This document shows positions 4,266 to 64,000 of a stretch of 64,000 bases of DNA, piece by piece. A model generated the notes under the pieces. The model had not been told where the DNA came from and ran no database searches. It was given only the letters and a program-made list of their open reading frames with translations. This DNA is from Sporichthya polymorpha DSM 43042 (GTDB taxonomy: Bacteria; Actinomycetota; Actinomycetes; Sporichthyales; Sporichthyaceae). A program made the position numbers and the translations under genes. Location of the stretch: positions 1,460,907 through 1,524,906 of the forward strand of contig NZ_KB913029.1 of the NCBI RefSeq assembly GCF_000384115.1, written 5' to 3'. Position 1 is the stretch's first letter; every line of letters begins with the position of its first letter.

Positions 4266-4609
4266 ACGGGAACGCCGGTGGTGAAGGCCCGCAGCCGCAT
4301 CGCGGCCTTGGTGTCGACGGCGCCGTGGATGGTGACCGCCGTCCCGCCCTCGACTTCGGCGAACTCCAGTCGCGCGGTTTTCGTGCGGCGGACGAACGGC
4401 AGCAGGATGGGGATCAGGAACGCCCAGCCGGGCGTGTGCTTGATCGTGCGGGCGACGTAGCCGCCCTCCGGGGACCACTCGACGAGGACACGGCCCGGCT
4501 CCTGCAGCGCGTACCCCGTGGCGCTGATCGCCTCACGGAACGGCCTCGGCACCACGTAGGTGCGGCCCTCCATCTGGTCCAGGCTCGACAGGATCGACCA
4601 GTGCCCCAC
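4256..4609 (-). CDS. Conserved hypothetical protein, 117 residues
   Basis: A small soluble protein, not recognised. It starts at GTG with GAGGAGA 5 bases upstream, a good ribosome site. The sequence alternates short beta-like segments (VLVEWSPEGGYVARTIKHT, ARLEFAEVEGGTAVTIHG) around one hydrophobic stretch (AFLIPILLPFV, about residues 63-73), which resembles a small SRPBCC-like or lipid-binding fold, but this is only an impression. It is monocistronic and convergent with azlD. Confidence 0.65.
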   Translation of the reverse strand: MGHWSILSSLDQMEGRTYVVPRPFREAISATGYALQEPGRVLVEWSPEGGYVARTIKHTPGWAFLIPILLPFVRRTKTARLEFAEVEGGTAVTIHGAVDTKAAMRLRAFTTGVPVPA

Positions 4610-4860
4610 GACGTCTCCTCGTCCTCGAGGTCCCGGGCTCCAGTATTCAGGACCGCCGGCCCGATCCGGGCGGCGACGAGGATCGCGTCCCGTCCCGCCT
4701 GATCCGCGCGCACCCGCCGCGACGTCGTGGTCGCAAGCAGGTCAGGATTTGCGTTGTCGAGTGCCATTGCCGTCTGCTTGTCCCCGAGTTACGCGTAGAC
4801 GGCGGCGACCGGGGTAAGTCATCGGTCCGGGGCGGGCGAGTTGTGTGCGGGAGGGGTTTC

Positions 4861-49210: not shown

Positions 49211-50764
49211 ATGTCCGCCACCACCGTTCCGGCCTCACGGCCGGACGACGCCGCCCGTCCGGACGTCGTCCACCGGGAGATCCCGCGCCAGGTCGCACCC
49301 GACGCTTCCGCGGAAGCGGCCGCCGCCGCCCGGGCCCACCGGCACCGCTGGCTGGTGCTCGGGGTCCTCGGCATCGCGCAGCTGATGGTCGTCCTCGACG
49401 CGACGATCATGAACGTCGCGCTCCCGGCCGCGCAGAACGCCCTCGTGTTCTCCGACAGCGACCGGCAGTGGGTCGTCACCGCGTACGCCCTCGCGTTCGG
49501 CAGCCTGCTGCCCCTCGGCGGCCGACTCTCGGACCTGTTCGGCCGGCGCGCGACACTCCTCGTCGGGCTGTTCGGCTTCGCGGGGGCCTCGGCGCTCGGC
49601 GGTGCGGCGCAGAACTTCGAGGTGCTCGTGACCGCCCGCGCGCTCCAGGGCGTGTTCGGCGCGCTGCTGGCCCCCGCCTGCCTGAGCCTGCTGACGACGA
49701 CGTTCACCGACCCGAAGGAGCGGGCGAAGGCCTTCGGCGTCTTCGGTGCCCTCGCCGGCATCGGCGGCGCGATCGGCCTGCTGCTCGGCGGCGCGCTGAC
49801 CACCTACGTCTCGTGGCGCTGGGCGCTGTACATCAACCTGGCCTTCGCGGCCGTGGCGATCGCCGGTACCGCCGCCCTGCTCCCCCGCATGAAGCGCAGC
49901 GGCCGGGTCCACCTCGACCTGCCGGGCACGCTGACGATCTCCGCCGGCCTGTTCTCCCTGGTCTACGGGTTCTCGCACGCCGAGACCGACGGCTGGAGCA
50001 ACGGCGTCACGATCGGGTTCCTCGCGGCCTCCGCCGTGCTGCTCGTGCTCTTCGTGGTCCTGCAGACCCGGGTCTCCGACCCGCTGCTCCCGATGCGCGT
50101 CCTCGCCGACCGCACCCGGTCCGGCGCGTACCTCGCGGTGCTGATCTCGGGCGCCGGGATGTTCGCGGTGTTCCTGTACCTGACCTACTACCTGCAGGCG
50201 GTTCTGGGCTTCTCGGCCATCCGCACCGGTGTGGCCTTCCTGCCGATGGTGGTGGCCCTCGTCTTCATGGCGCAGATCGCCAACACCGTTCTGCTGCGCC
50301 GCATGGGCCCGCGGATTCTGGTCACCCTCGGCATGGCCGTCGCCGCGCTCGGCATGAGCGACTTCACCGTCATCACGGTCGAGGGCGACTACGCGACGCA
50401 GGTCCTGCCCGGCCTGATCGTGATGGGCATGGGCATCGGCCTGATCTTCGCCCCGGCCATGCAGGCCGCGATCACGGGCATCGAGGCGCGGGACTCCGGC
50501 GTCGCCTCCGCGATCGTGAACACGGCGCAGCAGGTCGGCGGTTCCGTGGGCCTGGCCCTGCTCGGCACCGTGGCCGGCGACGCACTGACCTCGCACCTGG
50601 GCAAGGGCGACGACGTCCCCACGGCGATGGTCGAGTCCTACGTGACGACCTTCTGGTGGGCGACCGCGATCTTCGCCGTCGGCGCGGTCCTGGTGGGGCT
50701 GCTCCTCCGCTCGGGCCGCCTGCCCGAGCCCGCCGAAGGGACCGAGCACGTGATGGCGCACTGA
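49211..50764 (+). CDS. MFS efflux transporter, DHA2 family
   Basis: A 517-residue, 14-helix DHA2 transporter. Loop and helix motifs are complete: QWVVTAYALAFGSLLPLGGRLSDLFGRRATL (motifs D1 and A) and GIGGAIGLLLGGALTTY (motif C region). An 80-residue C-terminal part with GVASAIVNTAQQVGGSVGLALLG is present, which is missing in the damaged copy downstream. GGAGG lies 8 bases before the ATG. It is expected to be induced when the TetR ligand releases the two operators. Confidence 0.9.
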   Translation: MSATTVPASRPDDAARPDVVHREIPRQVAPDASAEAAAAARAHRHRWLVLGVLGIAQLMVVLDATIMNVALPAAQNALVFSDSDRQWVVTAYALAFGSLLPLGGRLSDLFGRRATLLVGLFGFAGASALGGAAQNFEVLVTARALQGVFGALLAPACLSLLTTTFTDPKERAKAFGVFGALAGIGGAIGLLLGGALTTYVSWRWALYINLAFAAVAIAGTAALLPRMKRSGRVHLDLPGTLTISAGLFSLVYGFSHAETDGWSNGVTIGFLAASAVLLVLFVVLQTRVSDPLLPMRVLADRTRSGAYLAVLISGAGMFAVFLYLTYYLQAVLGFSAIRTGVAFLPMVVALVFMAQIANTVLLRRMGPRILVTLGMAVAALGMSDFTVITVEGDYATQVLPGLIVMGMGIGLIFAPAMQAAITGIEARDSGVASAIVNTAQQVGGSVGLALLGTVAGDALTSHLGKGDDVPTAMVESYVTTFWWATAIFAVGAVLVGLLLRSGRLPEPAEGTEHVMAH

Positions 50765-50776
50765 CACCATGGAGCG

Positions 50777-52080
50777 GTGACGATCCCGACCCCGCGGCCC
50801 GCGTCCGAGCCGCCGGACCCCGCACCACCGACCGAGCCACCGGCGCCCGCGCGCCGGTGGCTCGTCATGTCGGTCCTGGGAATCGCGCAGCTGATGGTCG
50901 TGCTCGACGCGACGATCATGAACGTCGCCCTGCCGTCCACAGGCGGCGCTCGGCATCTCCGAAGCGGACCGGCAGTGGGTCGTCACCGCCTACGCCCTCG
51001 CGTTCGGCAGCCTGCTCCTGCTCGGCGGCCGGGTCAGCGACCTGCTCGGCCGGCGGACCACTTTCCTGCTCGGGCTGGTCGGCTTCGCGACCGCGTCCGC
51101 GATCGGCGGCGCGGCCCAGAACTTCGCGACGCTCGTGAGCGCCCGCGTCGGTCAGGGCGTCTTCGCGGCGCTGCTCGCGCCGGCGGCCCTGAGCCTGCTC
51201 ACCACGACGTTCACCGACCCGCGCGAGCGGGCGAAAGCCTTCGCGATCTTCGGGGCGCTGGCCGGCACCGGTGGGGCCGTCGGCCTCCTGCTCGGCGGGA
51301 GCCTGACGACCTACGCGTCGTGGCGCTGGGCGCTCTACGTCAACATCGCGTTCGCGGCCGTCGCCTTCCTCGGCGCGGTCGCGCTCCTGCCGAAGGTGCC
51401 GCGCGGGCCGCGGCCGAAGCTCGACCTGCTCGGCACGCTGACGGCCTCGACCGGCCTGTTCACGCTCGTGTTCGGCCTGTCGCGCGCGGAGACCGAGGGG
51501 TGGTCGGACGACCTCACCGTCTTCTGCCTGGTCGCGTCGTCGGCGCTGCTGACGAGCTTCGTCGCCCGGCAGCGCACGTTTGCTCGCTCGGGCCGGCACC
51601 CCCTGCTGCCGCCGTCGATCGTGGCCGACCGCGACCGCGCCGGTGCGTTCCTCGCGATGCTCATCGTGGGCTCGGGGATGTTCGCCGTGTTCCTGTTCCT
51701 GACCTACTACCTGCAGACGGTCATGGGGTACTCGGCGATCCGCACCGGCTGCGCGTTCCTGCCGATGGTCGCGATGATCGTCGTGTTCTCGCAGTTGACG
51801 AACCTCGTGCTGCTGCCCCGGATGGGCGCGCGTGTGCTGATCCCGCTGGGGATGGCGGTCGCCGCGCTCGCGATGAGCGACTGGACGACGATCGACGCCC
51901 GGGGCGACTACGCGACCGAGGTGCTGCCCGGCTTCCTCGTCCTGTGCATGGGCCTGGGGCTGATCTTCTCGCCCTCGATCCAGGGCGCCGTGTCCCGCGT
52001 GCACCCGCGGGACGCCGGCGTGCGCGATCTTCGCGGTCGGCGCGGTGGTGGTGGCGCTGCTGCTGCGCTCCCCGGGTCAG
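50777..52080 (+). pseudogene. Broken second DHA2 MFS transporter gene
   Basis: A close paralogue of the gene just upstream (VLGIAQLMVVLDATIMNVALP is shared) with two lesions. Near 50936-50942, after codons for LPS, one extra base shifts the frame; the correct sequence QAALGISEADRQWVV continues in another frame and runs intact to about 52018 (VHPRDAGV). There a deletion removes about 54 codons: the text jumps from GV to AIFAVGAVVVALLLRS in a third frame, at a GCGATC word that occurs at both edges of the missing segment in the intact paralogue. The native stop is gone. It is unlikely to be functional unless the frameshift is a sequencing error, which would not explain the deletion. Confidence 0.85.
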
Positions 52081-52316
52081 CCGGCGAGCAGCAGCTCGCT
52101 CAGCGGGCGCCGTTCGCGCGGGGCGCGCTCCCGGGCCGCGTAGGGCTCCGGGAGGTCCGCCTCGGGGTCGAGCTGCCCGATCGCGACGACCGAGACCGGC
52201 CGTAGCTCCGGGGCCAGCTGAAAGCGAGTCACGACGCCGTCGGCGTCGAAGCCGCCCATCTGATGCACCGCCAGGCCCAGTTCCTCGGCCTGGACCGACA
52301 GGTGGGCCACGGCCTG
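52077..52316 (-). pseudogene. Nitroreductase gene, 3' fragment
   Basis: The last 78 codons of a nitroreductase-family gene (AVAHLSVQAEELGLAVHQMG ... LSELLLAG), cut off from the first 122 codons by the 10.9-kb element. The combined 200 residues are the normal length of the family. A GTG at 52337 inside the element would add seven foreign residues to this piece (VKLHHRQ), so a short product is possible but cannot form the flavin site. Its 3' end abuts the broken MFS gene. Confidence 0.88.
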
Positions 52317-52333
52317 ACGATGATGCAGCTTTA
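52298..52333. other. Left attachment site (attL) of the integrated element
   Basis: The plus strand reads GGGCCACGGCC-TG-ACGATGATGCAGCTTTA. Bases left of TG (52315-52316) are nitroreductase sequence, bases right of it belong to the element. The four bases CCTG (52313-52316) are shared with the right end. The phage arm ends in AGCTTTA, the mirror image of TAAAGCT at the other end. Confidence 0.85.
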
Positions 52334-52348
52334 CCACTCAGAAAATGG

Positions 52349-52399
52349 GAGAGCCCCACCGGGCGGGACAAGGTGAGTTGGTCGCCCGGTGGGGCTCTC
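52349..52399. terminator. Strong hairpin terminator at the end of the element's operon
   Basis: GAGAGCCCCACCGGGCG (52349-52365) and its exact reverse complement (52383-52399) form a 17-bp stem with a 17-base loop. It lies between the last phage gene and attL, so it isolates phage transcription from the host gene fragment in both directions. Confidence 0.8.
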
Positions 52400-52501
52400 T
52401 CCGACACCTCGCGGGCTGGAAGCTCGACCGGCTGGTCCGCGCACGCCGACTGTAGATGTTGGCTTGCTAGGTCAGGTGGTTGAACCCGCGAGGGGCGGTC
52501 T

Positions 52502-52906
52502 CTATGCGGAGCGCCTTCGGTAGTTGTCGAGAACCATTCGCTCGCTGAGCAAGAACCCGTCGAACGGTCGCATCACTTCTGAGTAGCCGCCGATCTCGAT
52601 CCGGGTGGACGCCGTCGGGTTGCTTGCGCTGCGGCCGGCGCACTGGACGAGCACCCCGGCCACGTCTTCCCGGACCTCGAGGGTGCCCGGCTCCACGCCT
52701 GGACGGAACGCCGTCCCTCGCGTGTAGGCCCGGACCATCGAGATCACCGAGTTCAAGTGGATCTGGAGGTGCGCGAGAGTCTCGGACTGCTCGTCCAGCC
52801 GCAAGAACTTGGCGACGTCGCGGGCCGTGGGGCAGGACGTGAAGAGGCCCGGCCTCGGCGTGAGTGTGCCGAAGACGATCTGGGCCTCTTCGAGGTCGTC
52901 GGTCAT
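52502..52906 (-). CDS. Head-tail connector (gp6-like adaptor)
   Basis: The 134-residue protein has the pattern of small phage head-completion adaptors: an N-terminal segment with DVAKFLRLDEQ, a helical core (IHLNSVISMVRAYTRG), AGRSASNPTASTRIEIGGYSE and a C-terminal LLSERMVLDNYRRR. The A-S-N-P-T followed by GGYS is characteristic of this group in actinophages. It is the last gene of the operon, with its start overlapping the capsid stop (TGATG). It would close the portal vertex and form the tail attachment site, although no tail gene follows. Confidence 0.75.
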   Translation of the reverse strand: MTDDLEEAQIVFGTLTPRPGLFTSCPTARDVAKFLRLDEQSETLAHLQIHLNSVISMVRAYTRGTAFRPGVEPGTLEVREDVAGVLVQCAGRSASNPTASTRIEIGGYSEVMRPFDGFLLSERMVLDNYRRRSA

Positions 52907-53823
52907 CAGCCGATGTTCTTGATCTTCACGATCGCCGTCGGGTTGGTCGGGACAGCGTCGTAGCGCGTTGTCACGCGCACCCCAATTTCATCCGTCTCGG
53001 CGTACAGCTCGGTCAGGATCTTCACCGACGGCGCGAGATCTCTGGCGACCAGGATTTGGCTCATGTCGGCCAAGATCACGTTCTGCTCGTCCGCGTCGCT
53101 GTCGCCGTCCGCGCTGTCCGGTCCCTTGGCGAGGTGCTGCGACACGATGACCGGAGCGCCGAGGATGCGGAACCCACCCGCCTCCGTGATGTCCGGCTGA
53201 ATGAGGGGGCGGTTCGAGCCGGTGGCCTCCTTGATCAGGTGCATGGCCGTGAGCTGCTCCGGTCGCATGATCCACTTCAGCGCGCCCATGTTGACGTTGG
53301 CCGTCATGCACATGCCCATCGCGGTGATCATGTCGTCGTAGGTGAGGGCGGCGTTCGCCTTGTCCATCACCTGCACGCCCGAGTACCCAAGGATTCCCTT
53401 GGGCGTCGTGATGCCGTCACCCCCGACGCCGAGGAAGTTCCGATCGATCTTCTCGACGACCTTGAAGATCAACTCGCTCTGCATCACCGCGTCCAGGGCG
53501 AGCACGGACTGCCGGGCCATCTCGGCGGTCCACTTCGTGATGATCTTGACGGACTCCATGGTCGACGGCAGGAGCTGGATGCTTCCGAAGTCGACGTCGG
53601 CCTTCGGGATCAGCTCCCCCTCGCCGACCCAGCTCGGGTCCTCGGGGGTCGTGGTGTTCTCGGCGACCAGGCCCTTGAGCACCGGGACGCGGAGGGGGCC
53701 GGCGGAGTCAACGATCTTCACGCCGGAGTTCAAAAACTTGGAGGACTCGCGGAGCGGCTGGACCAGGAACTTGAGGACCTGTTCCTGGGTCAGCTCGGGA
53801 GCGGTGCTGGTCTTGACCGACAT
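52906..53823 (-). CDS. Major capsid protein (HK97 fold)
   Basis: The 305-residue protein has the HK97-type capsid pattern: an N-terminal helix, PLRESSKFLNSGVKIVDSAGPLRVPVLKG, EDPSWVGEGELIPKADVDFGSIQLLPSTMESVKIITKWTAEMARQS, a P domain with LIFKVVEKIDRNFLGVGGDG, and ILGAPVIVSQHLA followed by DMSQILVARDLAPSVKI. No separate protease gene is seen; a scaffold gene stands upstream. The ATG at 53823 has GAGGCAGG upstream. It would build the icosahedral shell. Confidence 0.88.
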   Translation of the reverse strand: MSVKTSTAPELTQEQVLKFLVQPLRESSKFLNSGVKIVDSAGPLRVPVLKGLVAENTTTPEDPSWVGEGELIPKADVDFGSIQLLPSTMESVKIITKWTAEMARQSVLALDAVMQSELIFKVVEKIDRNFLGVGGDGITTPKGILGYSGVQVMDKANAALTYDDMITAMGMCMTANVNMGALKWIMRPEQLTAMHLIKEATGSNRPLIQPDITEAGGFRILGAPVIVSQHLAKGPDSADGDSDADEQNVILADMSQILVARDLAPSVKILTELYAETDEIGVRVTTRYDAVPTNPTAIVKIKNIG

Positions 53824-53936
53824 GGCCTGCCTCGTCTGTGCGATCCGGATGTGGGATCGCGACCGGCACCAGGCCGTGCGTCGCGGCCGGGCACCCGGCC
53901 CGACGTTTCGTGGATCGGCACCGCATCGGCAGTTCG

Positions 53937-54350
53937 TCACCACCTGTTCAGGAACTGCCGGACCGCCTGGGCCTTCGGACCGGTCCGGCCCGCGCCGTCG
54001 TCACCTCTCAGCCATTCGAGAAGGCGGTCTCGCCACTCCGTAGGGATCTCGGCCCTGTTGCGCGCCACCGTGAACTCTCGCCAGAGCCTGAACCACATCC
54101 AGTGGTGGTCGCCGCACTCGTCCCGCAGACAGGCGGCGATCTTCGTCTGCCGGTTCCCGTCGAGCGTGCGCATCATCCAGTCCAGCGGGGCGCCGCCGCC
54201 GGACGTGTTGTGTCCGTTCCCGCAGTAGTACGTGCCGCAGTCGCGGCAGCACGCTCTCGTGATTGGGTAGCCAGTGACGCTCTGGAATCCGGACACGCTC
54301 TCAAAGTGACGGATAGTCAGATTATGTCGGCAGCAGATCGGTCTCGGCAT
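53937..54350 (-). CDS. Cysteine/histidine-rich phage protein of unknown function
   Basis: The 137-residue protein starts with a probable zinc-binding region (ICCRHN, ITRACCRDCGTYYC), followed by a helical second half with many Trp and Arg residues (HHWMWFRLWREFTVARN, WRDRLLEWLRG). It is not recognised. It lies between the scaffold cluster and the capsid gene, an unusual place for a regulatory-looking protein. A strong hairpin precedes it. Confidence 0.65.
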   Translation of the reverse strand: MPRPICCRHNLTIRHFESVSGFQSVTGYPITRACCRDCGTYYCGNGHNTSGGGAPLDWMMRTLDGNRQTKIAACLRDECGDHHWMWFRLWREFTVARNRAEIPTEWRDRLLEWLRGDDGAGRTGPKAQAVRQFLNRW

Positions 54351-54703
54351 CTCTCTCGCCTCAGGACGCAGCTCGCCCCAACCCGTTTCCGGGGCGGTTG
54401 CGTCCTGAGGCGTTCGCCATTAGACGGGGAGGTCTCGCACCTCCCGCCACGGTTGCCCATGGCCAGCCGAGCCGGTGTTCTCCACCGGACCTAGCGCGGG
54501 TCTGTGGTGCGGAGTCGAGATCGTCGTGACCGCCGGGAGGTAGCTGGCTGTTCAGCGTTTCTCCGGCCCAGCCGGGGCGCTCCTTGTCCGGCTGGTGCTC
54601 CGCACCTCGCCCGTTTCGTGGGCTAGACGGCGGTGGCTGATTGCCGGGACTCGGCGCAGGGTGCCTCTCGCTAAGACCGATCCTAGTGCCAGTGCAGGTG
54701 GTG
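54351..54703. other. 350-base gene-poor stretch inside the element
   Basis: It holds a long hairpin at 54358-54411 (GCCTCAGGACGCA pairs with TGCGTCCTGAGGC, with an inner CGCCCC/GGGGCG stem), a shorter one at 54427-54445 (GGGAGGT/ACCTCCC), and no credible frame. Such structured gaps in phage operons may be terminators, RNA elements or packaging signals. Confidence 0.6.
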
Positions 54704-54949
54704 TCAACGTCCGATGAGGCCGAACTTCACGAGGTAGCGGACGACCTGGCGCGGGTTCTCGCAGGGCGGCCCGAGGAGCTTCGGCCTGGCCCGTCCCCGG
54801 CGGGGTGGGCGGGCCTTCCAGCCGGTCGGTGTCCGCACGATGTCGTAGATCGTGCCCTCGACGCGGTAGCTCGCCACCCGCTGCCAGACGTCGTACTCGT
54901 ACTCGCTGATGGGCCACTCGTCGGCCCGCTGTTCGTTCGGAGTAGCCAC
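54704..54949 (-). CDS. Small phage protein, 81 residues
   Basis: A basic protein (ATPNEQRADEWPISEYEYDVW ... CENPRQVVRYLVKFGLIGR) with an Arg/Pro stretch in the middle (ARPPRRGRARPKLLGP). Not recognised. Its own start is ATG 54949. Its place between scaffold and capsid genes suggests a minor structural or assembly role, without direct evidence. Confidence 0.6.
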   Translation of the reverse strand: MATPNEQRADEWPISEYEYDVWQRVASYRVEGTIYDIVRTPTGWKARPPRRGRARPKLLGPPCENPRQVVRYLVKFGLIGR

Positions 54950-54984
54950 GCACGATTCTACTGACAGTGCGTCAGATGTTCGAC

Positions 54985-55158
54985 CTACGAGGGGCTCGGC
55001 ACGCTGGGCATCGCCGACAGGATCGCGATCGCTCGGCTCTCGTCGATGCCGTAGGCCGGTGAGAACAGCTGGTCGTCACGGACGAGCCATACGCGGCCGG
55101 TCTTGCCTCGCCGGACGGTGAACCCGCGCTTGCGCGCCAGACTGTCGAGGGTGGACAT
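54985..55158 (-). CDS. Small basic phage protein, 57 residues
   Basis: MSTLDSLARKRGFTVRRGKT is followed by VWLVRDDQLFSPAYGIDESR and a short tail. The ATG overlaps the scaffold stop (TGATG), so it is translated from the same message. The sequence looks like a compact DNA- or protein-binding domain. Unidentified. Confidence 0.6.
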   Translation of the reverse strand: MSTLDSLARKRGFTVRRGKTGRVWLVRDDQLFSPAYGIDESRAIAILSAMPSVPSPS

Positions 55159-55613
55159 CAGACGCCTCCGCGCATGAGCGCCGACAGGCTCACGGCGTCC
55201 GGATCCTCCTGGCTGTGCCGCCCTTGGCCGACGTCGCCGCGCGGGCGGGCCAGGTAGGGCTTCGCCTTGATCAGCTCTTCGGCGGCGGCGAGGATCTTCT
55301 CCGGGTCGGGGAAGCCGTTCTCGTCGGCGTAGGCGTCGTTCCAGGCCAGGTCGTCGGGCTGGGTCAGGATGTCCCGGACGGCGTTGGCGATGGCCAGGTC
55401 CCGGAGCCGCTTCTCGGCCTCCTCGCCCCGCTTCGCCTTGACGCGGGCGGTGGCCGCCTCGTCGCGGAGGTTCTTGACGTAGTCCTCGTCGTAGGTCTTC
55501 GGCTCGGTGCCCTCGCCGCCGCCAGGTTGGTCCCCCGCGCCGCCAGGAGGCTCCACCGGCGGCGCGGAGTCCGAGGTCTGCCCAACCCCCTTGGGGTCTT
55601 GTTCGTTCGCCAC
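55158..55613 (-). CDS. Phage scaffolding protein
   Basis: The 151-residue protein has a disordered Pro/Gly/Glu N-terminus (PPVEPPGGAGDQPGGGEG), a charged coiled-coil-like centre (YDEDYVKNLRDEAATARVKAKRGEEAEKRLRDLAI) and a C-terminal helical part (ILAAAEELIKAKPYLARP). This is the standard build of siphovirus scaffolds encoded just before the capsid gene. It would template shell assembly and leave the mature capsid. Confidence 0.78.
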   Translation of the reverse strand: MANEQDPKGVGQTSDSAPPVEPPGGAGDQPGGGEGTEPKTYDEDYVKNLRDEAATARVKAKRGEEAEKRLRDLAIANAVRDILTQPDDLAWNDAYADENGFPDPEKILAAAEELIKAKPYLARPRGDVGQGRHSQEDPDAVSLSALMRGGV

Positions 55614-55622
55614 AGCGGGCCC

Positions 55623-56258
55623 CTATCGGATCGAGATTCCTGAGGAGAACCGGACCTGCCCGGCGCTCGTGTTCCACGTACGGCGTAACTGGACTTGTCG
55701 CTCTCGCTGGCGGTCGGCCCACGACTCCGAGGCCACCGGGGCGAGGGAGCACCGGCACCCGGGGTGGTCGGTGAAGTCGACCTCGGTGGGGTGGATCGTC
55801 CCGGCGAGCGGCGCACACCTGTCGCACGCGTCGGGGCGCACGACCCGCCTCCACTGCTCCACGCCTCGCGCGCGTAGCGCTTCGAGGTAGGCGCGGTGTC
55901 CCCGCTGGAGCGGCTCGGAGTGTGCGACGCGGGCCGCGCGGGTCTGCACCCGCGCCATGGCCTGCCCGTGCGCCGAGAGGGTGGCGAACGCCCGAACGAG
56001 GCGCTCCTGCTCTTCTCGGGGCGGCAGCAATCCGAGCGCGCCGGACGGTAGGCCGACCGTGGCGAGCTGCCAGGCCGCGACGGCGGTGTCGGCGTAAGAG
56101 GTCGCCGCGACGTTGGCGGCGTACACCGATGCCGCCGCCGACTCGACGAACGACGTGCGGGAAACCGCGCCGGCGGAGTAGGCGGCTGCCGTTGCCGCGA
56201 CCTGCGCCTCGGCCCGGGCTGCCAGCGCCGCCCAGACGGCGACGAGGGCCTCACTCAT
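55623..56258 (-). CDS. MuF-like minor head protein
   Basis: The 211-residue protein has a long helical N-terminus and the MuF/SPP1 gp7 C-terminal signature: RPDACDRCAPLAGT, then HPGCRCSLAPV, a conserved set of Cys and His residues. Such proteins sit inside the portal vertex and can be ejected with the DNA. It overlaps the portal stop by 8 bases. The domain can carry a C-terminal toxin in other phages, but here it ends right after the MuF motif. Confidence 0.78.
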   Translation of the reverse strand: MSEALVAVWAALAARAEAQVAATAAAYSAGAVSRTSFVESAAASVYAANVAATSYADTAVAAWQLATVGLPSGALGLLPPREEQERLVRAFATLSAHGQAMARVQTRAARVAHSEPLQRGHRAYLEALRARGVEQWRRVVRPDACDRCAPLAGTIHPTEVDFTDHPGCRCSLAPVASESWADRQRERQVQLRRTWNTSAGQVRFSSGISIR

Positions 56259-57621
56259 CGGTCGGCAGCGCCGTCGGCGGCGCGACGATCTGGCGGTCCA
56301 GAGATTCGCGCAGGCGCATGGCCCGGAAACTCTCGACCTGCTCCGGCGTGTACCCGAGGCGGGCGAGCCCGGCCTCCGTCGGGAGGATGTTGGCCTGCAC
56401 GAGCTTGGTGACGGCGTCGGCGGTCTGGGCCTCGGTGCGGGTCTCCGGGTTGTCCCAGATGATCTCCACCCGTGCCGGGCGCTCGCCCTGGACGGCCGCG
56501 ATCAACTGGGCGACCTTCGCCCACTCCGGGGTGAACGTCCGCATCCTCGCGTGGCAGCGGGCCACGAGGGATGCCTCCGCCGACCGGATGGCGTCGGCCG
56601 ACGGAGGCTGCTCGTTGATGACGCCCAAGTAGTGGGCGGGCAAGCCGCTGACGGTCGCGACTCCCTGGAGCATCAGGTCCACGCCGGAGGTGAAGCCGCC
56701 GAGGTCCGCCGAGGGGAACTGGCCCAGGCGGGCCTCAGGCTCCTCGACCTGCCACACGCGGCCCGCCTCGCCGGTGAACGGGTTCACCGCGACCTTGACG
56801 GGCTCGCCGTCGGCGTCGACCACGGGGTTGCCGTCGGCGTCCAGCAGGTCCTCCTCCTTCACCTCCAGCCCGGTGATCCAGCGGCGCGGGCGGGAGCCAA
56901 ATTCCGAGGCGACCATGAGGTCCGCCATCAACTTGCCGATGGCGTCGGTGAGGCCGAGGACCGGCGTCATCTCCGAGACGCCGTCGTGGTCGAGCAGGCG
57001 GCCGCGGTTCGTGAGCTGGACGACCGGCACCGTGCCCAGCGGGTTCGGCGTGGACTTCGCGTGGTTCCAGCCCTCGGCCGGGATCACGCCGCCGGTCGGC
57101 ACGTCGGCGCCGGACACGTACTCGTGGATCTTGTCGGGCAGGAACACCAGCGCCCGTGCCCGGCCGTCCTCGACCCAGCGCTTCGCTCCGGCCGTGACCT
57201 TGCGCGTCACCGGGTCCCGGACGACCGCGAACTCGTGCGGCGATTCGACGGTGACCGACGGTGCGCCGGAGTCGTCGGTCCAGACAAGGACGTAGGACCG
57301 GCCCAGGGTCAGCGCCTCGACGTGGGCGACGGCCTGGCCGTCCTCCATGCCCGACCGCTCCCACGCCTGCCAGATCTGGTCGTCCGCCTCGCCGTTCACC
57401 GAGAAGCCGATGACGCGCAGCCGCTCCGCGATGGAGTCGACGACGACGCGGGGGTAATTGACCGTCAGGGCGGTCAGCCGGTTGCCGAGGGCCTCCTTCG
57501 CCTCCCGCGACAGGAACGCCAGGGGCTGCTCGCCCGCGTAGTACTGGTCGAGCTGCGTCAACCGGTGCGAGGTCTCGTCCAGCCGCCGGGACAGGCCTTC
57601 GAGGATCTTCACGACGCTCAC
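56251..57621 (-). CDS. Phage portal protein
   Basis: The 456-residue protein matches SPP1 gp6-like portals: LDQYYAGEQPLAFLSREAKEALGNRLTALTVNYPRVVVDSIAERL near the N-terminus, the stem region GIVTPAEG-like GGVIPAEGWN and PNPLGTVPVVQLTNRG, and GVDLMLQGVATVSGLPAHYLG followed by EQPPSADAIRSAEA in the crown-side helices. It forms the DNA entry ring on the head and docks the terminase. The GTG at 57621 overlaps the terL stop (GTGA). Confidence 0.88.
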   Translation of the reverse strand: MSVVKILEGLSRRLDETSHRLTQLDQYYAGEQPLAFLSREAKEALGNRLTALTVNYPRVVVDSIAERLRVIGFSVNGEADDQIWQAWERSGMEDGQAVAHVEALTLGRSYVLVWTDDSGAPSVTVESPHEFAVVRDPVTRKVTAGAKRWVEDGRARALVFLPDKIHEYVSGADVPTGGVIPAEGWNHAKSTPNPLGTVPVVQLTNRGRLLDHDGVSEMTPVLGLTDAIGKLMADLMVASEFGSRPRRWITGLEVKEEDLLDADGNPVVDADGEPVKVAVNPFTGEAGRVWQVEEPEARLGQFPSADLGGFTSGVDLMLQGVATVSGLPAHYLGVINEQPPSADAIRSAEASLVARCHARMRTFTPEWAKVAQLIAAVQGERPARVEIIWDNPETRTEAQTADAVTKLVQANILPTEAGLARLGYTPEQVESFRAMRLRESLDRQIVAPPTALPTDE

Positions 57622-59078
57622 CAGACGGCCACCTTTGATCGCTTCTTCTTGCTCGCGTGGAACGTGGCGCGGGACCAGGCCATGACCGCGCACACGGCCA
57701 GGTCGATGCGGTGCGTGCTGTTCTTCGAGTCCTTGCGCAGGCGGGTGCCGCGCACGTCCTCGGTGACCCGGGCGTTGGCCACGTGGGCGGCGAGCGCCTT
57801 CTCGCCGGAGTGGGTGACCTGGCCGTTGAGGGCCGCCTCGTGGAGGCCGATGGTCGCCGGTGACATGCGCGCCGCCGACTGCGGGAACTCGGTCACCGGC
57901 AGGCCCTCCTTGGCGAGCACCTGGAGAGTGCGCTGCCACCTATACGGGTCGGCGGTGATCTCCTTGACCCGCCACTTCGAGCAGGCCAGCCGGATCGCGT
58001 CCTCGACCGCGAGCACGTCCACCCGCCAGTCCTCGTCGCCCGGGTTCGCCCAGTGTCCGGCCACGTCGATGTGCGGGGCGGCGCTGATCGTCGCCGCGAC
58101 GAGGCCGGTGGAGTCCTGCGAGAACGAGCCGTCCAAGGCGAGCACGACCTCGGCGTCCTTCGGGATCGGGACTCCCGTCGACCGCGAGGGCCACAGGCCC
58201 GGCGGCATGTAGCTGTCGTCCGCGCCGGAGGTCCACTGGCCCAGCCGTGCGCGGCGGAAGCGGGCCTCCCGTGTCTTCGGCGGCAGTGACGCCCGCAGCG
58301 CGTCCGGGAACAGGAAGTCGTGCAGCGCCGGGTTGGCGACGGCCCAGGCCTCCTCGTCGTCCAGGGCGCATCCGGCCGGTGCGGCGAACTCGGTGAACGT
58401 CGTCAGCGGGTCGTCCGGGTTCTCCAGCATGTCCCGGCGGAGGTCGTACATGACGCTGTCCGTGCCGTGCTCGGACGGGGTGCCGATGCACAACGTCAAG
58501 GAGGTTGGGCGCTTGCCGGAGGCGTCGAGCATGACCTCGAACGTCGCCCGGTCCACGACTCCGATCTCGTCGATCAGGGCCAGGCTCGGGTCCAGCCCTT
58601 CGAGGGATCGGGGGTCGGCCGGGTACATCTGGAGGGTCGATCCGCTGCCCGGCACGTAGATCCGGTCCGTGTAGACGTAGGACCTCTTCGCCAGCAGCGG
58701 GTTCAGCTCGGTCATGCGGACGGCGGTCCGGAAGATCAGGGAGGCCTGCCGCTCGTCCCGGGCCACCACGCAGACCTGGGCCCCCATCACGCCGTCGCCG
58801 TGGGTGGCGTAGAGGCCGAGGGCTGCGGCGAGCGACGACTTGCCCTGGCCTCGTGGGAGTGACCACAGCCCGAGGCGGGGGCGGGGCTCGTCGAACGCCG
58901 AGGAGATGAGGTCCCTCTGCCACGGGCGCAGCGACATCGGCTTCCCCGCGCCGGCCCCCTTGGGCACCACGACGAACTGCTCGATCCACGCCGAGACGCG
59001 GTCGCCGCCGCCGGTGGGCAGGTCGTGCTCCACCAGCGGGCGGTTCGATGCGCCGGTCTTCGGCCCCGCGTTCGCCAT
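57618..59078 (-). CDS. Phage terminase large subunit
   Basis: The 486-residue DNA packaging motor has Walker A SLPRGQGKSS at 73-82, Walker B LALID-E at 166-171, a coupling motif region SLTLCIGTPSE, and an RNase H-like nuclease domain with Asp316 in LALDGSFSQDSTG. It cuts and pumps DNA into the head through the portal. No clear small terminase subunit is visible. It is followed directly by portal, so a full packaging machine is present. Confidence 0.9.
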   Translation of the reverse strand: MANAGPKTGASNRPLVEHDLPTGGGDRVSAWIEQFVVVPKGAGAGKPMSLRPWQRDLISSAFDEPRPRLGLWSLPRGQGKSSLAAALGLYATHGDGVMGAQVCVVARDERQASLIFRTAVRMTELNPLLAKRSYVYTDRIYVPGSGSTLQMYPADPRSLEGLDPSLALIDEIGVVDRATFEVMLDASGKRPTSLTLCIGTPSEHGTDSVMYDLRRDMLENPDDPLTTFTEFAAPAGCALDDEEAWAVANPALHDFLFPDALRASLPPKTREARFRRARLGQWTSGADDSYMPPGLWPSRSTGVPIPKDAEVVLALDGSFSQDSTGLVAATISAAPHIDVAGHWANPGDEDWRVDVLAVEDAIRLACSKWRVKEITADPYRWQRTLQVLAKEGLPVTEFPQSAARMSPATIGLHEAALNGQVTHSGEKALAAHVANARVTEDVRGTRLRKDSKNSTHRIDLAVCAVMAWSRATFHASKKKRSKVAVW

Positions 59079-59167
59079 CTCGGCGGGTGGATCGGCACGG
59101 GCTCGAAAGTGACCGCCCAGGGGCCTGCTGGGAGGGTGAACCTCGCGGGTCGGTTGGGCCTACTCCC

Positions 59168-59713
59168 CTAGGTGCGCGGTCTTCCGCTCGCGTCGCACCG
59201 GACGGTGGGGACCTTGGTCGCCGTCGGTGGACGGTGGCCCGGCGCGGTGCGGTCGTGGCGCGGGTCGATGCCTCCGTCGATGAGCACCAGGTGCCCGTCC
59301 TCGTCGAGGCCCATGTTCTCCGGGCTCTCCTCGCCCGCCCAACTCTCCCGCAGCGCCAGCAGCTCGCCCGGGTCAGCGGTGCCCTCGGTCAACGGGGCGT
59401 AGGGCTTCATCGCCATGACCTTCTGGGTGGGGTACGGCCACCAGTCCGGGCACCACGGCTTGTCCGCGTGGCGGGTGAACGTGGCCACCTCGTGGTCGAA
59501 CGTCTCCGTCCTGTCGTCGGTGTGCGCCTTGTACGCGACGCCGTCCGGGCCGAGGAACGCGACGCGGGCTCCCTTGCCGAGGAAGGTCCACGTCTCGCCC
59601 TCGTGCTCCATGGTCGTCGCGTGGTTCGGGTGGTCGGGTGGCAGGTCCGGGAACCTTCTCGCGACGGCTCGGGCCTTCCGGGCGTTCGCCTCGGATCCCA
59701 GCGGGGTCTTCAC
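59168..59713 (-). CDS. Phage protein with a kinase-like terminal motif, 181 residues
   Basis: Not assigned to a family. The N-terminal half contains WTFLGKGARVAFLGPDGVAYK, similar to a nucleotide-loop strand and Lys strand of a kinase fold, and the C-terminal half has SPENMGLDEDGHLVLIDGGI, similar to the N-x...D-x-G catalytic/metal motif of protein kinases and aminoglycoside phosphotransferases. The protein is too short for a full kinase. It overlaps the upstream gene (GTGA). The kinase likeness is an impression from two motifs only. Confidence 0.6.
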   Translation of the reverse strand: MKTPLGSEANARKARAVARRFPDLPPDHPNHATTMEHEGETWTFLGKGARVAFLGPDGVAYKAHTDDRTETFDHEVATFTRHADKPWCPDWWPYPTQKVMAMKPYAPLTEGTADPGELLALRESWAGEESPENMGLDEDGHLVLIDGGIDPRHDRTAPGHRPPTATKVPTVRCDASGRPRT

Positions 59714-60084
59714 TTCTCGGCCTGGATCTCGGCGCGCCGCTCGGCGAGGGACTTCTGCCGCCCGTGCTTCGGGCCGATGGGGACGTCCTCGTAAGGGTCG
59801 CCGTGGGTCTGGAAACGCTTCTCGTGCGTCGAGCAGTAGCGGCGGTGGCGGGGCAGGTCGCAGGACTCCAGCTCGCAGTCCTGTCCCTCGATTGTGGCGC
59901 GTGGCCGCCAGGTCCGGCCCTCTCTCTCGGCCCGCTCCTTGGCCGCCTTCTGGGCGGCGGCCTTCTGGGCTGCCGCGCGGCACGGCCTGCACTGTCGCTC
60001 GCCGTTCGCCTTCGGGAACACGTTCGCGGGGTCGGTGAGGTCGTGCAGTCCCTTGCCGCACGTCGTCCACTTCGTCTTAGGCAC
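59710..60084 (-). CDS. Zinc-motif phage protein, 124 residues
   Basis: Two cysteine clusters suggest metal binding: TTCGKGLHDL with CRPCRAAA near the N-terminus, and CELESCDLPRHRRYCSTHEKRF near the C-terminus, separated by an Ala/Lys/Glu helix. The layout resembles actinophage proteins encoded next to HNH nucleases. It overlaps the HNH gene by 8 bases. It may assist the terminase or act as a small nuclease, which is an inference. Confidence 0.65.
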   Translation of the reverse strand: MPKTKWTTCGKGLHDLTDPANVFPKANGERQCRPCRAAAQKAAAQKAAKERAEREGRTWRPRATIEGQDCELESCDLPRHRRYCSTHEKRFQTHGDPYEDVPIGPKHGRQKSLAERRAEIQAEK

Positions 60085-60430
60085 TGCGCGCCTCCCACTC
60101 CTCGTACCGGCGGGAGCCCGGGATGGCCGGGCCCCTCTTCGCGTTGCAGCTCGCGCACACCACCTCGACCATGGCCAGCGTGATCGGCCGGCGGTTCAGG
60201 CGGGCGTGGTGCGCGGCGGGCGTGTGGTCCGTCGTCAGGTTGGCCTTGGTCCCGCAGTCCTGGCAGAACGGCTGTAGGCGGCGGGCGCGCTTCGAGAGGT
60301 TCCGCCAGGCCCGGCCGTACTGCGTCTCGTCCCGCTCCCTCGCGCGCGTAGCTCGTGGGTGCTCCGGGCAGCGGGTCTGCGGGCTGGGTACCCCGCAGAT
60401 TCCGCACGGGACCAGGACGCCGGGGATCAT
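60077..60430 (-). CDS. HNH endonuclease
   Basis: The 117-residue protein has the HNH core: CQDCGTKANLTTDHTPAAHH with the first His, a central Asn, and VVCASCNAKRG with the zinc cysteines. A second Cys pair at the N-terminus (CGICGVPSPQTRCPEH) may bind another zinc. HNH proteins next to terminase genes are needed for packaging in many head-tail phages. It overlaps the upstream stop (ATGA). Confidence 0.85.
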   Translation of the reverse strand: MIPGVLVPCGICGVPSPQTRCPEHPRATRARERDETQYGRAWRNLSKRARRLQPFCQDCGTKANLTTDHTPAAHHARLNRRPITLAMVEVVCASCNAKRGPAIPGSRRYEEWEARSA

Positions 60431-60807
60431 GCGAGGTGCGCCCGGATGTGGGCGTCGATGGTCGCCTCGATGGCGTCGTCGTACTCGTGCGAGTCGCGGA
60501 GCCAGTCGTGCTGGCCCCCTTCCGCCTGCTCGAAAATTGCTTGGTCCACGGCCCTGCCGCCGTGCTCCCCGCCCCACGCCATCCACCCGATCCAGGTGTC
60601 CCCGTCGTCCCTCACTGACGTGCCGTGGCGGCCCGACGCGGCGAGCGCTCCGCTGTCGCGGTGGATCTTCGACTGGGCGTCGGCGAACGCTCCCGTCATG
60701 ACGGCGTCCAGCGCTGCTCGGAGGGCTGGCGTGATGACCTTCGCGTCCCGCTCGGCCTGGCGGATCGCGGCTCGGGTGGAGTGGCGGTTGTCCTGGCGGA
60801 GTGTCAC
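60427..60807 (-). CDS. gp10-like head-tail or tail-completion protein
   Basis: The 126-residue protein has the pattern of HK97 gp10-like proteins: a helical start (TRAAIRQAERDAKVITPALRAALDAVM), DSGALAASGRHGTSVRD, a short strand pair and VDQAIFEQAEGGQHDWLRDS. Such proteins usually act after the capsid at the head-tail joint. Here it precedes the HNH gene, far from the connector gene, which is unusual. The GTG start overlaps the previous stop. Medium confidence in the family. Confidence 0.6.
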   Translation of the reverse strand: MTLRQDNRHSTRAAIRQAERDAKVITPALRAALDAVMTGAFADAQSKIHRDSGALAASGRHGTSVRDDGDTWIGWMAWGGEHGGRAVDQAIFEQAEGGQHDWLRDSHEYDDAIEATIDAHIRAHLA

Positions 60808-61055
60808 GGGGTCTCCCCCGCCCGCGTGCCGTCCCGGTCGGCCTCGGCGATGGCCAGGAACCAGTTGTCGATGGTCGCCGTGGCCCGCTCCCGGCTGCCC
60901 ACGCCGTGCTCCAGCATCGCGGCCGCGAGGCTCACCGTCTGCGCGAACAGCTCCGGGGTCGGCGGGTTCTCGCGCATCAGGATCGAGAGCACCTCCGGGT
61001 CCCGGTCGATGCTGCCCCGCAGGAAGGCCAGCGCCAGCAGGCGGTCCCGGTTCAC
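60804..61055 (-). CDS. Small helical phage protein, 83 residues
   Basis: VNRDRLLALAFLRGSIDRDP is followed by MRENPPTPELFAQTVSLAAAMLEHG and an acidic helix (DNWFLAIAEADRDG). It is all-helical, possibly a small regulatory or packaging protein; a small terminase is conceivable from its place before HNH-terL but its length is below the usual range. The start at GTG 61055 is uncertain; the frame is open further upstream. Confidence 0.5.
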   Translation of the reverse strand: MNRDRLLALAFLRGSIDRDPEVLSILMRENPPTPELFAQTVSLAAAMLEHGVGSRERATATIDNWFLAIAEADRDGTRAGETP

Positions 61056-61225
61056 GCGCCCGCCCTGGTCGGGCGGCTGGCGCGGTGGTCGCTGTTCGGC
61101 ACGGTGTCCTCCTAGGGGTTCTCCCGTCACGTACGCCCTCCTCGCGCCCTCGCGGCGTGGGATGCCGAAAGGGAGAACGGGGGAGCCCTCCACCGCGCGA
61201 CACGTGCGTTGCACGTGCGTGACCC

Positions 61226-61522
61226 TCAGCCGGGTTCGCGTCGGTGGACTGACCGGGATGCCGATGAGGTGTCCGGGGTCGCCCTCCACCCTCCGGTATC
61301 GGCCTCAGGTGCGTTTGTCCTCGGCGGCCGTGGCCTGTGCGACGGTGGCGGCGGCTCGGGCACCCTCGTCGGGTCGGCTCGGTGCGCCCACAGCAGCTGC
61401 TTGTAGGTGATCGTGTTGGCCGCCTCGACCATGTCCGCCCAGTAGTCCGGCGTCGAGCCGAAGGCCCTGATCGCCTCCCACAGCAGGGCGCCGAACTCCA
61501 GGAGGATGGCGTCGTCGTCCAT
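61226..61522 (-). CDS. Small phage protein, 98 residues
   Basis: MDDDAILLEFGALLWEAIRAF is followed by a helical part (DYWADMVEAANTITYKQLLWAHR) and a long Pro/Arg-rich disordered tail. Not recognised. The helical head could be a short protein-protein module. The start at ATG 61522 is preferred to TTG 61630, because the added residues look non-coding. The two frames before and after it are small too, so this is the accessory part of the element. Confidence 0.5.
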   Translation of the reverse strand: MDDDAILLEFGALLWEAIRAFGSTPDYWADMVEAANTITYKQLLWAHRADPTRVPEPPPPSHRPRPPRTNAPEADTGGWRATPDTSSASRSVHRREPG

Positions 61523-61660
61523 CTCCGGACGGCCGAGGTCCGAGGCCAGCAGCGGTCGCCTGGCCGCCCGCTCCGTGTCCTGTGAGCTAGTGCTCAGGTA
61601 GGGCGTGGTCGACGGACCTTCCTGTAGCAACGCTTGCCCCTCGGGTCGTGTCGTCGGGCG

Positions 61661-63193
61661 CTACACCGCCTCGTCGTGCTCCCAACCCATGTACTGCTGG
61701 CCCGTCGGCAAGTAGACGGTCACCCGGTCCTCGACCGGCACCCGCGTCGAGCTGCCCGCGTCGAGCTTCTGCACGACGATCTTCGGGAACAGCGTCTTGA
61801 CGATGCTGCGCTGCTGGTCCAGCGGGAGCGCGTCGAACTTCTGTCCGACCTCCTTGCGGGCTGCCGCCGCGTCGGTCAGCGAGACCCTCTTGACCCTCAC
61901 CCGCTCGCTCAACATCGCCGCGAACGCGTTGTCGGCCTGGGCCTGGTCGAGCTTCTCCTGCGTGGCGTCGATCAGGAGGTTCAGCGGCTTGTTCAGCCTG
62001 CGCAGGTCCTCGGCGTTGATCGTGCGGTCGCGGAGCAGCGACACGTTCTCGTCGCGCTCCTGCTTCAGCCGGCCGAGTTCCTCGCGGAGGCTCATCGCCC
62101 GCTCCAGGTTCCGCGACGCCGGGGCGAGCGTCTGCACGTCCGTGAACGTCAGCCGGTAGACGGCCATGTCCCGGAGCAGCTTGTCGAGCGGCTCGCGGCG
62201 GACGGCGGCGGCGCAGCCCTTGCCGGTGCACCGGTACTGCGCCGAGCGCGTTCCGGTCTCCCGGTCCGGCCGCTTGGTCGGGTTGATGCCCGCGTTCAGC
62301 TTGTGGCCGTTCGAGCACGTGGCGAGGCCCGACAGCAGCCTGCTCGGTGGTCGGTGGGCGCGCTTGTTCGCGGTGGCGATGGCCACGCACCGCCGCCACT
62401 CGTCCTCGGTGCAGACGGCCTCGGTCTGGGCGGTCGCGCCCTCCACGATCTGCCGTCCGGCGCCGGGCTTCTCCGGGTCGATGCGGCGGTCGACCAGTCC
62501 GGCGTTCCTCGCCCGGATCAGCACCTTCTTGACCGCGTCCTGCGACCACTCGACCGTCTTGCCGGTCTTGGATGCTGTCTGACGCTGGCGATGCGACAGC
62601 GCGCCGCGCTCGTTCCACTCGCGGGCGATGGCGGACAGTGAGCCGCCAGCCAGGTACTCCTGGATTCCCCAGCGCAGTGCCTCGGTCTGGGCGGGGTTCT
62701 CCCAGCCGAACGGCGGCGGACCGCCGAGGCTCTTGCCCTCCAGGATGGCCCGTTCGTTGCGCAGCGTGTGCCGCTCCGACTTCCTCTCGGACTCGGCCTC
62801 CGCGACGGCCGCGAGGATCGTGGCGACCAGCTTCCCGGCCGACGTGCTCAGGTCGAACGCGCCGGACTCGCAGGTGTGGAGCTGCGCGCCGGTCCGCCGG
62901 GCGATGACGATGAAGTCGAGCATGTCCTGCGTGGACCGCAGGAAGCGGTCCATGTGCAGCGTCAGGACGACGTCGATCTCGCCCTCTTCGAGCGCCTTCC
63001 ACAGCTCATCGCGTTTCGGGAGTTCGCCGCTGTACGCGCTCCCGGTCTCGTCGTAGATGGTGACGACCTTGAAGTCCGCCGACTTGGCGAGGCTGCGGCA
63101 CCGCGAGAGCTGGCGCTCCGGCTTGGCGCGGTCGTCGTTGCGGTTCTGCGAGACGCGGATGTAGATCGCTGCTCGGAGCTGCTCAGTTGTCAT
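61661..63193 (-). CDS. Large serine integrase
   Basis: The 510-residue recombinase has catalytic Ser15 in YIRVS, the arginine region DRFLRS, and the small resolvase helix (SAGKLVATILAAVAEAESERKSER), then the recombinase domain (FGWENPAQTEALRWG, SLSAIAREWNERG), a zinc ribbon (TCSNGHKL and RCTGKGCAAAV) and a coiled coil (ERAMSLREELGRLKQERDENVSLLRDR). It integrates by two-base staggered cuts at short dissimilar att sites. The ATG lies 20 bases inside attR, so host transcription enters it directly. Confidence 0.93.
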   Translation of the reverse strand: MTTEQLRAAIYIRVSQNRNDDRAKPERQLSRCRSLAKSADFKVVTIYDETGSAYSGELPKRDELWKALEEGEIDVVLTLHMDRFLRSTQDMLDFIVIARRTGAQLHTCESGAFDLSTSAGKLVATILAAVAEAESERKSERHTLRNERAILEGKSLGGPPPFGWENPAQTEALRWGIQEYLAGGSLSAIAREWNERGALSHRQRQTASKTGKTVEWSQDAVKKVLIRARNAGLVDRRIDPEKPGAGRQIVEGATAQTEAVCTEDEWRRCVAIATANKRAHRPPSRLLSGLATCSNGHKLNAGINPTKRPDRETGTRSAQYRCTGKGCAAAVRREPLDKLLRDMAVYRLTFTDVQTLAPASRNLERAMSLREELGRLKQERDENVSLLRDRTINAEDLRRLNKPLNLLIDATQEKLDQAQADNAFAAMLSERVRVKRVSLTDAAAARKEVGQKFDALPLDQQRSIVKTLFPKIVVQKLDAGSSTRVPVEDRVTVYLPTGQQYMGWEHDEAV

Positions 63194-63196
63194 GCC

Positions 63197-63232
63197 TAAA
63201 GCTACTGCAACCCTGCCCGGTGTCGTAGACGG
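63197..63232. other. Right attachment site (attR)
   Basis: The plus strand reads TAAAGCTACTGCAACCC-TG-CCCGGTGTCGTAG. Bases left of TG (63214-63215) belong to the element, bases right of it to the nitroreductase. Joining the phage arms gives a dyad centred on TG: TAAAGCT, then matching C, CA and C positions, mirrored by AGCTTTA 17 bases either side. This symmetry supports TG (CA on the other strand) as the two-base crossover. Confidence 0.85.
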
Positions 63233-63578
63233 CCCACGGGGCCGTGCTCGCCGGCGCTGTGTCGGCGACGGCCACGATCAGCAGCGAGGCCCGCGGGGCC
63301 CAGGCCTGGTTGCCCGGGTGAAGCAGGTCGACGATCGCGTCGAAGGTCCCCTCACCCCGGCGGCCGACCAGGAAGCGCCACGGCTGGGCGTTCGCGGCCG
63401 AGGGCGCCCAGCGGGCGGCCTCGAGCAGCGTGTGCAGGTCGGCGTCGGAGACCCGGTGCGCGGGGTCGAACCCGCGCGGGCTCCAGCGCCCGGCGAGCAA
63501 CGGATGCAGTTGGGCCGGCGTGTCCGCCTGCCGGGCCGGCAGGGGCGCGCGCACGGCGGTGAGAGGTGTTGCAGGCAT
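63214..63578 (-). pseudogene. Nitroreductase gene, 5' fragment
   Basis: The first 122 codons of a nitroreductase-family FMN protein (AGRWSPRGFDPAH, DLHTLLEAARWAPSAANAQPWRF). The frame runs through attR, adds nine foreign residues (GCSSFRHDN) and stops at 63183, 11 bases past the integrase start codon, so the two are overlapping frames on one message. GGGGGA lies 6 bases before the ATG. Without the C-terminal part the flavin pocket and dimer are incomplete, so the product is probably inactive. Confidence 0.9.
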
Positions 63579-63594
63579 GGCTGTCCCCCAGCAA

Positions 63595-63607
63595 TGACGA
63601 ATCGTCA
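63595..63607. promoter_or_regulatory. Palindrome TGACGA-A-TCGTCA upstream of the nitroreductase
   Basis: A 13-base dyad 17 bases before the start codon, between the pirin gene and the nitroreductase. It has the same TGACG-NNN-CGTCA form as the intergenic palindromes at 1838 and 32000, but at a promoter. It could be a repressor site that now controls the integrase. Confidence 0.45.
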
Positions 63608-63642
63608 GAAAATTCGGCCGGCCGCGGGAGCGCGGCCTTGAC

Positions 63643-64000
63643 TCAGCTCGCCAGCGTGGCGTGCATCTCCCAGACGAGGATCTCGGCCGGCTCCGTCCCG
63701 GCGGTGACGCGCTGCCCGCCGGTGGCGGTGAAGCGCACTGCGTCGCCGGGGGCGAGCACCCCGGCGCCCTCGAGCTCGACCGAGCCGCGGGGCACGAACA
63801 GGTGCAGGTACGGAGCCTCGGGCAGCGTCACGCTCTGCCCGGGTGCGAGCCGGGCGGCGTGCAGCGCGGCGTAGCGGTTGCGGATCCGGATCGCCGCGGC
63901 GTCGGCGTGCTGCGGCATGCCGGACGCCACCGGGATCAGTCCGCCGGAGAGCAGCTCACCGTCGATCTCGAGCTGCTCGTACCCCGGGTCCACGCCGTTC
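63643..64000 (-). CDS. Pirin family protein, C-terminal part (start outside the window)
   Basis: The frame is open to the right window edge (DPGYEQLEIDGELLSGGLIPVASG ... GSVELEGAGVLAPGDAVRFTATGG), so the N-terminal cupin with the metal ligands is not visible. The visible part is the pirin C-terminal cupin barrel. Pirins are metal-dependent, some with quercetinase activity, and are often stress-induced. The gene is just upstream of the split nitroreductase and both may belong to one oxidative or electrophile response unit. Confidence 0.82.
   Translation of the reverse strand, partial: NGVDPGYEQLEIDGELLSGGLIPVASGMPQHADAAAIRIRNRYAALHAARLAPGQSVTLPEAPYLHLFVPRGSVELEGAGVLAPGDAVRFTATGGQRVTAGTEPAEILVWEMHATLAS

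Follow-up and report, generated by a model that had tools for sequence, protein, structure and literature searches.

The locus analysed here raises the question of whether a mobile element that splits a host gene also governs its integrase through that gene. The window (the whole stretch of 64,000 nucleotides, G000:C1:1460907-1524906) comes from the 5.5-Mb single-contig genome of Sporichthya polymorpha. An earlier note on this DNA had proposed that the integrase is expressed from a host nitroreductase promoter only while the element is integrated, and that excision both repairs the host gene and silences the integrase.

Mapping against intact orthologues revealed a 200-codon nitroreductase gene split between Gln122 and Ala123 by an element of 10,899 bp. 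The alignment of the window with L009, from the same genus, extends up to position 52316 and resumes from 63212, the gap being the element. The bases common to both element ends, judged from the empty sites of L009 and L010, are CCTG (52313-52316 and 63212-63215). When the flanks are joined they encode a 200-aa protein in which Gln122 is followed by Ala123, with no gap at the join when it is aligned with the products of the intact genes (199 and 196 aa), in agreement with the frame reconstructed in the earlier note. That note had also suggested looking for intact genes in relatives, and an uninterrupted homologue was found in each of the four other family genomes compared (57-100% identity to the L009 protein). 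The host features are as follows:

63643-64000, minus strand: host pirin gene upstream of the nitroreductase gene, continuing to 64419
63212-63578, minus strand: N-terminal part of the nitroreductase, codons 1-122 (PF00881 and orthologue comparison)
63183-63578, minus strand: truncated nitroreductase frame (stub) of 131 aa, which runs through the junction and stops 11 bases into the integrase gene
52077-52316, minus strand: C-terminal part of the nitroreductase, codons 123-200 with the stop (orthologue comparison; outside the coordinates covered by the earlier note)

Both halves are still in frame, with dN/dS of 0.08-0.23 against L009 and L010, values which mostly reflect the time before the insertion. 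The stub matches the Pfam Nitroreductase family over residues 29-96, and its stop TGA (63183-63185) closes an 11-base overlap with the integrase gene, ATGACAACTGA. Coordinates and overlap are as first described, as are the pirin gene next to the nitroreductase gene and the integrase ATG some 20 bases from the core (ATG at 63193, about 18-20 bp from CCTG). A stub frame open past the integrase ATG is expected in 93% of cases by chance and is not significant; the junction-crossing frame was therefore dropped as evidence by itself. Chance was excluded for the split because of its exact match to the empty sites and because a second element has a like layout. Insertion, gene disruption and a frame that excision could restore are thus solidly supported by sequence comparison.

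The element spans 52317-63215 with one copy of the CCTG core included, and has a G+C content of 70.0% against 72.1% in the flank. Its recognised genes all run in one direction, the integrase first:

61661-63193, minus strand: large serine integrase of 510 aa, first gene of the element (PF00239 and PF07508)
61226-61630, minus strand: small gene after the integrase, conserved in the second element (L024)
60077-60586, minus strand: HNH endonuclease-like (phrog_144)
57618-59078, minus strand: terminase large subunit
56251-57939, minus strand: SPP1-like portal protein, true start probably within the frame
55623-56258, minus strand: minor head/head maturation protein
55158-55613, minus strand: head scaffolding-like protein
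52906-53943, minus strand: HK97-type major capsid protein, probably starting nearer 53826
52502-52906, minus strand: conserved small gene after the capsid gene
52349-52399, minus strand: terminator-like structure separating the head operon from attL, a 17-bp perfect hairpin with a T-rich stretch behind it

The integrase carries both domains of the large serine class, an N-terminal resolvase (PF00239, E=3e-26) and a recombinase domain (PF07508, E=9e-7). From their positions, the gene at 61226-61630 is a candidate directionality factor and that at 52502-52906 probably encodes a head-tail connector; several further small conserved genes had no recognised function. No tail, lysis, replication or repressor genes were recognised among the element proteins scanned. 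Neither AlpA nor a primase was found among the scanned proteins, which included only part of the short frames, and the element was therefore not classed as a PICI. It does have the features of a capsid-forming satellite, with its own terminase, portal and capsid genes, no tail genes and a size in the range of 10-15 kb. Since terminase, portal, scaffold, capsid and HNH genes are present and tail, lysis and replication genes were not recognised, the element looks like a capsid-encoding phage satellite. The phiRv1-like elements of M. tuberculosis are about 10 kb in size and carry a serine integrase and encapsidation genes, with no replication genes. Capsid-forming satellites and the Streptomyces satellites Mulch and Flayer (PMC10690885) likewise have encapsidation genes and lack replication genes.

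Relatives were sought widely. The integrase alone and a two-row alignment found no relative in 84,980 genomes, nor was one found among 394 genomes of the class (E 1e-60) or 396 of the phylum (E 1e-50). The search of IMG/VR gave one close relative, L024, on the same contig as L022 and L037 and with both element junctions on that contig. A second match of the right-end pattern search beside it, the AT-rich L036, has no integrase frame and was discarded as a chance match. The L024 element is 11,553 bp long and has the same gene order as that of S. polymorpha, with integrases 54% and terminases 70% identical; the integrase and all head genes of the window element are open frames with L024 counterparts. 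It splits a gene, between ..CDVGQ and GDALVL.., which from this motif we take to be comEC-like. The core reads CAGG on the integrase strand, host gene and integrase run in the same sense, 19 bp separate the integrase ATG from the core, and the stub TGA overlaps this ATG. The layout is therefore conserved and a property of the element family, as judged from two elements (n=2) homologous to each other; the sense orientation in two cases may be chance. Both left ends also provide an in-frame start codon to the C-terminal host part, a GTG for the nitroreductase (52077-52337) and an ATG for the comEC part, possibly by chance.

Recombination sites could be placed as follows:

63212-63215: attR core CCTG, with TG at 63214-63215 as the predicted central dinucleotide (empty sites of L009 and L010, symmetry of the attP arms)
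52313-52316: attL core CCTG (empty-site comparison)
63197-63204: P' arm of the inferred attP, TAAAGCTA (layout as in PMC5311408)
52326-52333: P arm of the inferred attP, CAGCTTTA, an inverted copy of the P' arm
63221-63226, minus strand: ACGACA, a host hexamer weakly resembling a -35 element (4/6), 16 nt upstream of a -10-like box, integrated state only

Two other candidates for attL, 11-bp matches to the attR region at 13664 and 31653, were ruled out, the C-terminal half of the host gene being at 52316. The predicted circular junction is TAAAGCT-ACTGCAACCC-TG-ACGATGATGC-AGCTTTA, that is, 7-bp inverted arms (TAAAGCT/AGCTTTA) around a 22-bp spacer centred on the TG inside the core. These are the features of a serine integrase attP: about 50 bp, inverted arms, a spacer near 20 bp, an adjoining integrase gene and a very short core. 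The nearness of the integrase to the core is ordinary for serine integrases, because published attP sites of this class commonly adjoin the integrase gene; that of phiJoe lies 18 bp upstream (PMC5311408), and the phiBT1 record has 33 bp between the annotated attP and the integrase. The enzyme now has exact predicted attB, attP, attL and attR sequences, which would make it useful as a tool.

The P' arm contains the complement of TAGCTT (63199-63204), a TANNNT box resembling a -10 element 5 nt before the integrase ATG. Read on the integrase strand, the window element has CAG-TAGCTT with 5 nt to the ATG and L024 has GAG-TAGCTT with 6 nt; the former fits the actinobacterial SRN-TANNNT -10 box and falls inside the 22 bp before the ATG. 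TANNNT stands 5-7 nt upstream of 0.57% of the ATGs in the window, which holds 49 TANNNT sites on both strands. In M. tuberculosis the main -10 motif is TANNNT, in many cases with SRN in front of it; no -35 motif is conserved there, and many messages are leaderless (PMC3898074). On reading the sequence, no Shine-Dalgarno was seen before the integrase in either element, and a strict sigma-70 scan of 63100-63760 returned no promoter. Because TANNNT lies 5-6 nt before the ATG in both elements and is rare at this distance in the window, the simplest reading of the sequence is that a leaderless integrase message begins on the ATG or right beside it, which would make the host promoter dispensable; the integrase is probably served by a leaderless promoter of its own whether integrated or excised. 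As the two elements are homologous, TAGCTT may also be conserved purely for integrase binding. A strong promoter within 63193-63215 had been named in the earlier note as evidence against host control; the putative TAGCTT box would resemble such a promoter, if strong enough.

The window element has ACGACA-16-TAGCTT (4/6) in attR and no -35-like hexamer above threshold in its circular attP. In L024 the attP has ATGACA-17-TAGCTT (5/6; 8/12 overall) and the attR only 3/6, so that its better promoter-like pair is in the circular and not the integrated form. Hexamers of at least 4/6 and at least 5/6 accompany only 6% and 2% of window TANNNT sites. These pairs would suit a promoter swap, in which the -10 in the P' arm takes its -35 from the host in attR or from the other element end in attP and integration retunes the integrase up or down according to the target. 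However, the matches are weak (7-8 of 12) and mapped mycobacterial promoters have no conserved -35 (PMC3898074). Moreover, the -35 zones change in opposite directions in the two elements, so they give no general rule, and we consider a swap of this kind possible but less likely.

Genes for YceI, pirin and nitroreductase lie on one strand in that order, with a MarR gene divergent from YceI. In the integrated state the integrase is the first gene downstream of this same-sense operon, with only the att arm between the core and its ATG. Read-through from the host is a plausible additional source of integrase message, and re-initiation at the integrase through the stub ending just inside it could occur; a stop in coupling range is expected by chance in 5% of such cases. 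A palindrome, TGACGAATCGTCA, precedes the nitroreductase gene (63595-63607), stands in the same place in both congeners (TGACN5GTCA) and is a possible operator; since there are 9 instances of the pattern across the window, it was dropped as evidence of regulation. Another, GTTGATGTATCAAC, lies outside the window between the divergent MarR and YceI genes (L040, 65051-65064 on the scale of the window) and is a likely MarR operator.

The best explanation of the locus as a whole, to which we give a probability of about 0.5, is an integrated capsid-encoding satellite whose integrase is served by a weak core promoter of its own whether the element is integrated or circular, with host read-through in addition. 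The alignments show that a satellite-like element with a serine integrase has entered host coding sequence at a CAGG core, and that the integrase begins inside the element's own attP arm. Besides being part of this arm, TAGCTT is most likely the -10 box of a leaderless transcript, giving a weak core promoter in either state, and recombination would swap the DNA upstream of it, the host gene when integrated and the left end of the element in the circle. While integrated, read-through from YceI-pirin-nitroreductase, perhaps with translational coupling via the stub, would add to integrase expression. In the circle, the 17-bp perfect hairpin (-54.6 kcal/mol, z -5.5), then lying between the head operon and attP, would shield the integrase from that operon; in L024 the corresponding place is taken by a hairpin of 10 bp with a T-rich stretch after it. 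Repair of the host gene would be a side effect of excision. With a start codon inside the attachment site, integration itself changes the upstream DNA, and in this way a minimal capsid-encoding satellite could regulate its integrase while carrying next to no regulatory genes.

The switch first proposed, an integrase without a promoter of its own that is driven by the nitroreductase promoter while integrated and falls silent on excision, as in active lysogeny, would account for an integrase gene that comes first after a host operon of the same sense, lies only 18 bp from the core, overlaps the stub and has no Shine-Dalgarno. No strict sigma-70 promoter at attR, a hairpin insulating the integrase from the head operon in the circle and the host-driven integrase documented for integrated ICEKp1 are likewise in its favour. 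Yet a promoter-like TANNNT directly precedes the ATG in both elements and the circular form of L024 has the better promoter-like pair, which argues against expression from the host promoter only. Complete silence in the circle is unlikely, because the circle could not integrate without integrase, and such a design would work only if protein were carried over; ICEKp1 itself turns to a second promoter once excised. Precise excision would repair the gene, in agreement with the intact joined frame, but silencing of the integrase is not supported. The switch would also require regulated excision, of which the sequence analysis gave no sign. We therefore regard it as unlikely in this strong form, on only when integrated, whereas a weakened form, in which the upstream DNA varies with the state, is a reasonable hypothesis. 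A more elaborate version is improbable: a family of serine-integrase satellites would choose sense sites in coding genes, fusing the integrase start to the host frame through transcription and stop/start overlap, and the binding arm would also be the -10 box. Excision would then proceed at a rate governed by the activity of the host gene, here part of a MarR-linked redox operon, and the integrase would repress itself by binding.

It is also doubtful that the element is an inert remnant, a decaying piece of prophage unable to excise, with the nitroreductase permanently lost. Such a remnant would explain why no directionality factor, tail, lysis or replication genes were recognised, and the neighbouring MFS transporter gene (50978-52080, convergent with the nitroreductase gene) has, compared with L009, lost 173 bp close to its 3' end, which shifts its frame. 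However, the integrase and all head genes are open and have counterparts in L024, and both nitroreductase parts remain in frame under low dN/dS, even if that ratio covers mostly the time before insertion.

State-dependent integrase promoters are already known; in ICEKp1, a host promoter drives the integrase when integrated and a promoter at the element's own 3' end does so when excised (PMC13023037). ICEKp1 and ICEclc resemble the present case in having the integrase at the element end beside host DNA able to transcribe it, with the upstream DNA swapped on excision, but they target tRNA genes and their circle promoter was shown experimentally, whereas the present case is read from sequence only and has a serine integrase whose gene starts within attP, and a target that encodes a protein (PMC13023037). 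The closest precedents for an in-sense satellite inside a gene are the helper-embedded PICIs (PMC10111431), in which the integrase leads, excision restores the gene and transcription of the target enters the element. Those reside in a late gene of a prophage and have a tyrosine integrase, AlpA and a primase, whereas the target here is a chromosomal metabolic gene and neither of the latter two was found. In active lysogeny, as described for the Listeria prophage phi10403S in work cited in PMC6814406, a mobile element likewise splits a gene that its excision would mend; that account demonstrated both the regulation of excision and a benefit to the host, whereas the present element is known from its sequence alone. 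An element that splits a gene should not be assumed to be a host switch.

Two further regions differ between the elements. Unrelated small genes on opposite strands lie between the scaffold and capsid genes (53937-54350 in the window, 9555-10040 in L024), which makes this a likely cargo slot. Before the terminase, L024 has a gene (4295-5185, minus strand) with a PADLOC match to the candidate defence family PDC-S32 (E=2e-9), and the same slot holds other genes in the window element. Lastly, a second MFS copy lies just before the gene at 50978-52080 (49471-50710), the two being 73% identical at the DNA level.
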